A stretch of DNA of 50,462 nt, taken from the NCBI GenBank assembly GCA_902540995.1, contig CACBOY010000008.1:1-50462 (forward strand), written 5' to 3'. Origin of the DNA: an uncultured SAR86 cluster bacterium (GTDB lineage: Bacteria > Pseudomonadota > Gammaproteobacteria > Magnimaribacterales > AG-339-G14). The translations under genes and the position numbers were made by a program. This document shows positions 18,381 to 21,072 of this stretch, piece by piece. Below the pieces are notes generated by a model, which was not told where the DNA came from, searched no databases, and saw only the letters and a list, made by a program, of their open reading frames with translations. The first letter of the stretch is position 1, and every line of letters begins with the position of its first letter.

Positions 18381-18809
18381 TTATTCTTTATCTTGTTCTC
18401 GAGCTCTTAATTTTTCAAGGCTTAATTTGTCTTTTAGACTCATTAAATATGCTGCACCTGCAAGAATAATTACTGCGGCAGCTTCAGCAATGATCATCAA
18501 AGCATCCATTTCTTTATTTTGCATGACTATCAAACGGCATAAGGCAGTTATTGCAATAATAATTGGAAGAGTTACAGGTATCCTCGAAGTTGAATAAAAA
18601 GCTCCAACCATGCCCAATATCTCTGCATAAATAAATAGCATAAATAAATCAGGCAAAGTAATTTGTCTTGCTAAAAACATCTCATAGCAATACAAAGCTG
18701 CAGCAATGCAAGTTGATATTCCGATAATCGCTAGTAAAACTTTTTCACTGGCGATAGTGGTCCAATGCAGTCCCTTATTAACTGATTTGTCATTAAGTTT
18801 CTCAAACAT
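18381..18809 (-). CDS. PsiE-family membrane protein
   Basis: A 142-residue protein with four membrane helices. It matches the phosphate-starvation-inducible PsiE family, including the segment LPDLFMLFIYAEILGMVGAFY and the positive RLIVMQNKEMD stretch before the last helix. The C-terminus (KDKLSLEKLRAREQDKE) is cytoplasmic and charged. PsiE function is unknown even in E. coli, where it responds to phosphate limitation and cAMP. I saw no obvious Pho box in the 106-base gap upstream. It is the first gene of the unit PsiE-MAPEG-GST. Confidence 0.82.
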   Translation of the reverse strand: MFEKLNDKSVNKGLHWTTIASEKVLLAIIGISTCIAAALYCYEMFLARQITLPDLFMLFIYAEILGMVGAFYSTSRIPVTLPIIIAITALCRLIVMQNKEMDALMIIAEAAAVIILAGAAYLMSLKDKLSLEKLRAREQDKE

Positions 18810-18884: not shown

Positions 18885-18907
18885 GTCTTTAGGCTAAGAG
18901 ATTTAAA

Positions 18908-18967
18908 ATGCTCATATGTATGAAAAAGCAGCTGAAGATAAATCAAGATTCATTCAAAAAGGATTGA
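18908..18967 (+). other. Possible 19-codon upstream ORF overlapping the photolyase start
   Basis: An ATG at 18908, preceded by AAGAGA at a good distance, opens a 19-residue frame (MLICMKKQLKINQDSFKKD) that ends at 18967 and overlaps the first 52 bases of the photolyase-family gene in another frame. The true gene start at 18916 has no well-spaced ribosome site of its own. It may be a leader that affects translation, or chance. Confidence 0.2.
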
Positions 18968-20043
18968 AAGATTATTCTTCTCAAAGAAATTACGACTTTG
19001 GTCCCAAATCTAGAGAAAACACATCAAACTTATCAAAGTACATCTCTCACAGGATTATCAACGAATACGATCTTGTAAGAGAAATTCTCTCTGAATACAA
19101 TCTTCAAAAAGTAGATAAATTTATACAAGAAGTCTTTTGGCGAGTTTATTGGAAAGGTTGGCTAGAACATAGGCCAGACGTTTGGAGGGATTTTGTAGAT
19201 TCCGACCCAACTTACTCTGAAGAAAAATATAAGAAAGCAATAAATGGAGAGACTGGAATCGAGTGTTTCGATGATTGGGTTAAAGAATTAAAATCAGAAA
19301 ACTACTTACACAATCACACTAGAATGTGGTTTGCGAGTATTTGGATATTTACTTTAAATTTACCATGGGAGCTTGGCGCTAGATTTTTCATGAAATATTT
19401 ATTTGATGGAGATGCTGCATCAAATACTTTGAGCTGGAGGTGGGTAGCAGGGATTCAGACTCAAGGTAAAAATTATTTAGCACGAGAATCAAATATAAGA
19501 AAATTTACCAATCAGAGATATATGAATACTTCTCTCAATGAGAACGCCCTGCCCTTAAAAAATCCTAAAATTTACTCCCTACAGGATGTAAGACATCTAC
19601 ACGCCACACAAAAATATAAAAACTTAGTTTTATTTGAGTCTGATCTAAATGTTAATGAACGTTATTCTTTTTTTAAAAATTACGAAAATATTTTTCTGGT
19701 GTTACTTGATAATAAAAATAGAAACATAAAGTTAGATGAAAAAGTCCTTAATTTTAAGAGAACACTGCAAGAGGCTTTTGCAAGTGAGATATCTAACTCT
19801 CAAATAATTGATGAAGATACTTTCATGTCATTAAATGCTCAATTTGATGTGTTATATCCATCCATTGGAGAAAACATGGATTTCCTGGATCGAGAATTTA
19901 AAGATATTGATAAATTACATTTTATAGGTTTAAAAGAGGATATTTATTGTTGGCAATTCTCAAAAAAAGGTTTTTTTAATTTTAAAAAAAATATACCTGA
20001 GTTTATTAATTACTTACTTCATGAAAATGATTTATTTAATTAA
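18916..20043 (+). CDS. Cryptochrome/photolyase family protein with FAD domain first and alpha/beta domain last
   Basis: A 375-residue protein. Residues 40-205 are the FAD-binding helical domain of photolyases: FIQEVFWRVYWKGWLEHRP (69-87), LHNHTRMW (131-138), DGDAASNTLSWRW (164-176) and NYLARESNIRKFTNQRY (186-202), with the FAD aspartates and the electron-path tryptophan near 174-176 intact. The usual N-terminal antenna domain is missing, and an in-frame stop at 18904 rules out an upstream extension. Instead, residues 229-375 contain LVLFESDLNV, like the first strand of the antenna domain, suggesting a swapped domain order. DNA repair or light sensing is likely but unproven. The start is ATG at 18916. 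Confidence 0.85.
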   Translation: MYEKAAEDKSRFIQKGLKDYSSQRNYDFGPKSRENTSNLSKYISHRIINEYDLVREILSEYNLQKVDKFIQEVFWRVYWKGWLEHRPDVWRDFVDSDPTYSEEKYKKAINGETGIECFDDWVKELKSENYLHNHTRMWFASIWIFTLNLPWELGARFFMKYLFDGDAASNTLSWRWVAGIQTQGKNYLARESNIRKFTNQRYMNTSLNENALPLKNPKIYSLQDVRHLHATQKYKNLVLFESDLNVNERYSFFKNYENIFLVLLDNKNRNIKLDEKVLNFKRTLQEAFASEISNSQIIDEDTFMSLNAQFDVLYPSIGENMDFLDREFKDIDKLHFIGLKEDIYCWQFSKKGFFNFKKNIPEFINYLLHENDLFN

Positions 20044-20082: not shown

Positions 20083-21072
20083 ATGTATACAAAAAAGTAC
20101 TCCCAAGACATCAAGATTAATAATCCAGACAAATATAATTTGACTGAAAATATAGTTTGGTCTTCTCCACAAGGTTTTGACTTAACAATGGATGTATATT
20201 CTCCAAAAAATATTTCTGTTCATTGCCCTGTCGTGGTGATGTTTCATGGAGGGGGTTTTTTAATAAGAAGAAAAGAAATCCTCAACAATATGGCTCAATA
20301 CATTGCATCCAATCATAATTATGTAGTCTGTAATGTGAATTATCGATTACTTCGAGACCAAAGTAACACTGTTCTTTTTAATGATCTAATTGGAGATGCT
20401 TTTGGGTCTATTTTATGGATTAAAGAAAATATTCATAAATACAACGGCGATAAAGAAAGAATTGGAATTACAGGTGATAGTGCTGGAGCCTACATCTGTG
20501 CCATGATCCTTAATCTTGGAAAAAAAATAGGAAAAAAAGAAGACTTTGAAAAAGATCATGCTTTTGAGCCTACGTATCTTCCCGAATACTTTTCTTTACA
20601 AGAAGTTGCTAACAAAAATCTTTTAGATGTTAAAGCAGCTGTTTTGAGTTATGGAGGTTATGATTTTTATAAATTCGCCCTACAGAATGCCGAAACTTAC
20701 AAAAATATTTTTTGGTGGCTTGCCTTAGCAAAACCAAGAGGTGTATTAGGTAAAAAATTTAATCCTATTGAATACCCTGACATTTACAAAGCAATTTCAC
20801 CTATCTACAACATACCGGATTCTTCAGAACGAAAATTACCTCCTCAACTTTTAACGGCTGCAACGAAAGACAGAATAACGCCAGTACGAATGATTAAAGA
20901 ATATGGAGTAGCTTTGAAGGAAAAAAATCAAGAATTTGAATTCTGGGAGCATTTAAATAGAAATCATGCATATTTAGATTCAGGGAGAACATTAATAGCT
21001 GGTAATGATTTCATAAGAGATGGGATACCAGCTTTAAAAGTCATGATGAACTTTTTTCATAAACATCTTTAA
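20083..21072 (+). CDS. Alpha/beta hydrolase (esterase/lipase, HSL-like)
   Basis: A 329-residue hydrolase of the hormone-sensitive-lipase type. The oxyanion motif HGGGF is at 55-59, nucleophile S133 sits in GDSAGA, the acid is D263 (AATKDRITPV) and the base H295 (NRNHAYLD). It has no signal peptide and so is cytoplasmic. It would cleave small carboxylic esters; the specific substrate is unknown. There is an insertion of about 35 residues between the nucleophile strand and YGGYDFY, which may form a lid. It follows the photolyase gene by 39 bases on the same strand and may share its transcript. It ends one base from the convergent phosphotransferase gene. Confidence 0.88.
   Translation: MYTKKYSQDIKINNPDKYNLTENIVWSSPQGFDLTMDVYSPKNISVHCPVVVMFHGGGFLIRRKEILNNMAQYIASNHNYVVCNVNYRLLRDQSNTVLFNDLIGDAFGSILWIKENIHKYNGDKERIGITGDSAGAYICAMILNLGKKIGKKEDFEKDHAFEPTYLPEYFSLQEVANKNLLDVKAAVLSYGGYDFYKFALQNAETYKNIFWWLALAKPRGVLGKKFNPIEYPDIYKAISPIYNIPDSSERKLPPQLLTAATKDRITPVRMIKEYGVALKEKNQEFEFWEHLNRNHAYLDSGRTLIAGNDFIRDGIPALKVMMNFFHKHL

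Follow-up and report, generated by a model that had tools for sequence, protein, structure and literature searches.

Photolyases in which the FAD domain comes first in the chain are already known. The NewPHLs (Emmerich et al. 2020, Nucleic Acids Res 48:12845; A8LJA9 of D. shibae, M7YZC8 of M. mesophilicum) repair CPDs in ssDNA and have an inverted domain topology, as stated in a passage of a 2026 paper (PMC13274461, citing Emmerich et al. 2020), and the D. shibae enzyme is said in a passage of a 2022 paper to hold a “mere Trp dyad” (PMC8948257). For marine picocyanobacteria, Phr7 of Prochlorococcus has been described as an N-terminal FAD domain followed by a C-terminal Z-domain, without Fe-S cysteines, and equated with the ssDNA photolyase NewPHL (PMC9426592, 2022). 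The same study describes another reversed-order type, Phr4+Phr5 or Phr6, with Fe-S cysteines.

Here we analysed a stretch of 50,462 nt (the window) from an uncultured SAR86 cluster bacterium, which encodes a further protein of this kind. It fits every NewPHL feature that we examined (inverted order, Trp dyad, no Fe-S site, position in the clade) and is thus very probably a photolyase of the NewPHL class, similar to Phr7. Architecture, orthology, conserved residues and predicted fold were computed directly for the SAR86 protein, and the class membership is based on Prochlorococcus Phr7-type loci and alphaproteobacterial orthologs, A8LJA9 and M7YZC8 being compared by description only. A preliminary description of the locus had placed the FAD domain at the C-terminus in all standard photolyases. 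This is wrong, as NewPHL dates from 2020 and the picocyanobacterial Phr7 and Phr6 were reported in 2022. The inverted architecture is therefore not novel, and the SAR86 protein is a further member of a class that occurs commonly among marine bacteria.

Domain order and comparison with described classes

The ORF at 18916-20043 on the + strand starts with ATG and encodes 375 aa. Its features are as follows.

18904-18906, + strand: in-frame TAA 5′ of the start codon, which rules out an N-terminal antenna domain in frame
18916-20043, + strand: NewPHL-type inverted-order photolyase, 375 aa (Pfam, phmmer, homologs, AlphaFold2 model, tree)
18916-19515, + strand: catalytic FAD domain, residues 1-200 (alignment to E. 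coli PhrB)
19615-19953, + strand: C-terminal alpha/beta domain, residues 234-346, putative antenna-domain counterpart (model; profile comparison)
19954-20040, + strand: conserved KGFFNFKKNIP motif and last helix, residues 347-375 (model, alignment)

The only Pfam domain seen in the protein was FAD_binding_7, on residues 69-191 (model positions 1-129 of 203, E=1.9e-19). As phmmer aligned E. coli PhrB 204-395 to residues 3-187, the catalytic part starts at about residue 3. Neither the normal antenna family PF00875 nor the PF04244 N-domain of the DPRP type was matched in the Pfam search of the 375 aa. The protein has only two cysteines, C117 and C345, and hence no four-cysteine Fe-S site. Pfam, phmmer and the structural model thus bear out the reversed order put forward in the preliminary description, with the FAD domain N-terminal and an antenna-like alpha/beta domain C-terminal. 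The stop codon that it invoked to exclude an upstream antenna domain is present, and its N-terminal location of the FAD domain was right, but the domain does not begin at residue 40.

An antenna domain encoded elsewhere and joining this chain had been named as evidence that would speak against the reversed order. In the genome surveyed (984 kb in 28 contigs, 79% complete) a single PF00875 domain was found. Since it sits inside a complete, separate normal-order photolyase (478-codon frame), no stray antenna domain joins the NewPHL chain. A third photolyase gene in the genome has a DPRP N-domain, the type that includes the Fe-S (6-4) photolyases.

With the NewPHLs, as portrayed in the passages of PMC13274461 and PMC8948257, the SAR86 protein has the inverted order and the Trp dyad in common, and alphaproteobacterial relatives fall in the same clade. 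It differs in its gammaproteobacterial SAR86 host and in belonging to a separate marine subclade (support 100/100). Like Prochlorococcus Phr7 (PMC9426592), it has an N-terminal FAD domain, a C-terminal second domain and no Fe-S cysteines. It is 44% identical over the full length to the Prochlorococcus Phr7-type proteins of loci L079 and L117, the differences being only those of host and sequence divergence. Phr4+Phr5 and Phr6 (PMC9426592), found in marine Synechococcus and Cyanobium, share the reverse order, in split or fused form, and the four Fe-S cysteines of Phr4 and Phr6 have no equivalent in the SAR86 protein. The short photolyase-like type, SPL (Xu et al. 2021, as given in a passage of PMC9649867), also lacks an N-terminal alpha/beta domain. 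In that passage SPL is defined by this lack alone, whereas the SAR86 protein has a C-terminal alpha/beta domain in the model and so does not count as SPL. The class I/III CPD photolyases (E. coli PhrB, 1dnp) have the FAD domain and the CPD residues in common with it, but they carry an N-terminal antenna and a Trp triad, and the SAR86 protein, which has no N-terminal PF00875, is not one of them. The DPRP and Fe-S (6-4) photolyases have the PF04244 N-domain and Fe-S cysteines, neither of which is found here.

Fold and origin of the C-terminal domain

An AlphaFold2 model of the full-length protein, built on 27 homologs, was confident for both domains (mean pLDDT 92.2, pTM 0.90), and its top fold matches were photolyases. 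The predicted C-domain has a five-stranded alpha/beta layout with strands at residues 236-239, 258-262, 295-298, 310-313 and 335-337, helices between them and a helical tail after the last. The sequence LVLFESDLNV (residues 237-246), proposed earlier as an antenna-like first strand, is indeed strand 1 of this domain. By position, residues 347-375 may correspond to the VFTPF segment found after the normal antenna domain.

When the isolated C-domain was compared with the PDB in Foldseek, the 50 matches listed were all generic Rossmann-like folds, none of them at E<0.001, and included no photolyase. Searching PDB profiles and Pfam with this domain by itself yielded no useful match, and the SAR86-group C-domain profile alone did not match the antenna profile significantly. 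Using hhalign, the C-domain had no significant match to a shallow antenna alignment (9 sequences) and a significant one to a deeper alignment. A profile made from the C-domains of 24 orthologs (four from Alphaproteobacteria, the rest from non-gamma Pseudomonadota) matched a profile of 20 normal antenna domains collinearly with a score of 31.6 (E=1.8e-4), compared with 13.4 for the reversed control and 18.4 for the best of 40 column shuffles. The C-domains of the 24 orthologs in turn matched those of the SAR86 group (E=7e-11). The C-domains of Deinococcus and Persicobacter together matched the antenna profile at 6e-9, and the Deinococcus reversed-order proteins, which form a branch next to NewPHL, match PF00875 directly (E 2e-4 to 1e-3).

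These comparisons bear on the alternative that an SPL catalytic domain was fused to an unrelated Rossmann-type domain, which concerns the origin of the C-domain only and would be compatible with NewPHL membership. It would agree with the Foldseek result and with the SAR86-group profile taken alone, but both the collinear antenna match of the Pseudomonadota orthologs, with their link to the SAR86-group domains, and the direct PF00875 matches of the related Deinococcus proteins argue against it, and we consider it unlikely. Judging by the profile comparisons, the C-domain is a diverged antenna domain in its normal internal order, a conclusion that we hold with moderate confidence. The structural check suggested in the preliminary description thus favours an antenna fold when the wider-family profile is used and lends it no support when the isolated domain is searched with Foldseek. 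Internal circular permutation of the C-domain was rejected as strands 1-5 are in the normal order. The term “circularly permuted” is thus imprecise, as whole domains are swapped and the C-domain itself is not permuted.

The Deinococcus reversed-order photolyase-like proteins (L037 1351-2642; L149 1342-2712; L150 1342-2715) have a Cys cluster like an Fe-S site. This form is fused in strain AJ005 and in D. psychrotolerans. In Deinococcus QL22 it is split into two overlapping genes, the second of which is annotated as hypothetical and matches PF00875.

Distribution, phylogeny and selection

When the same order was sought in other genomes, as had been proposed, the first 100 related genomes yielded 19 further full-length copies, and the best 80 named loci were nearly all full-length. 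The protein is thus not a local artefact. Within the SAR86 order the distribution is patchy: the gene is present in 13/16 genomes of genus g1 (with one copy broken and another cut short) and in 9/9 of genus g3, and was not found in the genomes examined of genera g2 and g4. In the SAR86 relative G002 (C1:526929-528051), internal stops and frame changes disrupt the gene. Scanning named genomes yielded at least 588 relatives, the best 80 being mostly from Pelagibacteraceae, with others from SAR86, Puniceispirillum, OM182, one genome labelled Rhodobacteraceae and two Prochlorococcus single cells. Of 399 genomes drawn across the phylum, 26 gave a match, and besides the source genome 22 of these carry a full-length copy. 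Plasmid-borne copies were seen in Ruegeria, Asticcacaulis, Novosphingobium, Niveispirillum and Peteryoungia. A single-sequence query of viral contigs detected no relatives, and a fold search of BFVD had only normal viral photolyases at the top.

In a maximum-likelihood tree of the FAD domain only, all 30 inverted-order proteins form one clade with support 100/99, including two Prochlorococcus (Phr7-type) copies and 18 from Alphaproteobacteria or non-gamma Pseudomonadota. The normal photolyases are separate (100/100). Deinococcus and Persicobacter are also placed outside the NewPHL clade, the Persicobacter branch being long and its placement unsure. The Prochlorococcus loci L079 and L117 have neighbouring genes in common.

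For eight genus orthologs (L005 and L011 left out, dS saturated for L012), dN was well below dS in both halves of the protein, the C-terminal half evolving faster. Both halves are under purifying selection. A normal photolyase decaying after loss of its antenna domain, with a tail gained by chance, might leave copies such as the broken one in G002. However, this reading is already refuted by full-length conservation over SAR86, Pelagibacteraceae, OM182, Prochlorococcus and other Pseudomonadota, and the confident model and the excess of dS over dN in both halves also speak against it, so that its probability is negligible.

Conserved residues, predicted function and gene neighbourhood

We compared residues in 85 homologs, with 9 normal photolyases as contrast. 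E72, W75, M137, N170, W174, W176 and W151 are invariant in the homologs, except for one truncated row. Most of these fall at the following positions.

19129-19140, + strand: E72 and W75, at the E. coli E274 and W277 positions (CPD binding), invariant in aligned homologs
19366-19368, + strand: W151, at the E. coli W359 position, middle Trp of the electron-transfer chain (alignment)
19423-19443, + strand: N170, W174 and W176, at the E. coli N378, W382 and W384 positions (alignment)

Going by the positions in E. coli PhrB, we take E274 and W277 to bind the CPD, W359 to be the middle Trp of the electron-transfer chain, and N170, W174 and W176 to provide the flavin contact, the proximal Trp and the CPD-stacking Trp, respectively. 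In a departure that counts against the photolyase assignment, H134 occupies the position of E. coli R342. The distal Trp of the classical triad, present in 9/9 normal photolyases, is missing, so that W174 and W151 make up a dyad. The earlier statement that FAD and tryptophan positions are kept is hence correct for the FAD positions and the inner Trps but not for the distal one. With the flavin, CPD-contact and inner Trp positions kept, the protein is probably an active light-dependent enzyme, as had been suggested.

By analogy with the characterised members, it is most likely a CPD photolyase that acts on single-stranded DNA and is driven by blue/UV-A light, with the C-domain over the FAD site. 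The N-terminal helical domain would bind FAD and the lesion. Reduced FAD, excited by blue/UV-A light, would split a cyclobutane pyrimidine dimer lying in the pocket by donating an electron to it, and W174 and W151 would re-reduce the flavin. The C-terminal alpha/beta domain, a putative antenna relative, would pack on the catalytic domain and cover the FAD site; in the 2020 NewPHL abstract of Emmerich and co-workers, the C-domain reportedly seals this site. As in the characterised members, CPDs in single-stranded DNA would be the preferred substrate. The enzyme may work alongside the normal-order photolyase and the DPRP-type, (6-4)-like photolyase of the cell.

The gene is flanked by two others.

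18381-18809, - strand: PsiE-family membrane protein gene, head-to-head neighbour, context and not part of the enzyme (Pfam, flank comparison)
20083-21072, + strand: BD-FAE-type alpha/beta hydrolase gene, starting 39 nt past the NewPHL stop

In genus g1 the PsiE-family gene is head-to-head with the NewPHL gene, about 110 nt apart, and in most g1 genomes the hydrolase gene adjoins the latter. About 31 Pelagibacteraceae loci (e.g. L083 2088-2465) have a PsiE homolog of about 43-45% identity immediately upstream, in the same orientation. In the three g1 genomes without NewPHL the PsiE gene is missing too; in g2 and g4 it is present without NewPHL. That the marine-clade NewPHL and the adjoining PsiE-family protein form an undescribed membrane-linked unit for light repair or light response seems very unlikely to us. 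A DPRP-type photolyase gene occurs in the flanks of 39/80 of the best named loci, which fits a role in DNA repair. The Pelagibacteraceae loci (L043, L046, L051, L057 and others) have genes for a DPRP-type photolyase, an MsrA-like protein, an SDR and a DUF393-like protein nearby, of which DPRP alone was checked by Pfam, and look like a light/oxidation-damage island.

Residues and neighbours also have to be weighed against a cryptochrome-like light sensor, in which the inverted photolyase frame would be used for signalling and DNA repair would be lost. The flavin and Trp positions alone would suit a sensor as well, the same genome encodes other photolyases, and the conserved membrane-protein neighbour PsiE could be a partner. 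Nevertheless, the aligned homologs retain every CPD-contact residue that we checked (E72, W75, M137, W176), a second photolyase gene is nearby in many Pelagibacteraceae, and the characterised relatives are repair enzymes. We therefore regard a sensor as highly improbable and favour the single-strand CPD photolyase.

These results extend a recently described photolyase class to SAR86, abundant bacteria of the surface ocean, and show that NewPHLs occur widely among Pelagibacteraceae. The collinear match between the C-domain and the antenna domain, together with the split and fused Deinococcus forms, bears on the origin of two-domain photolyases.
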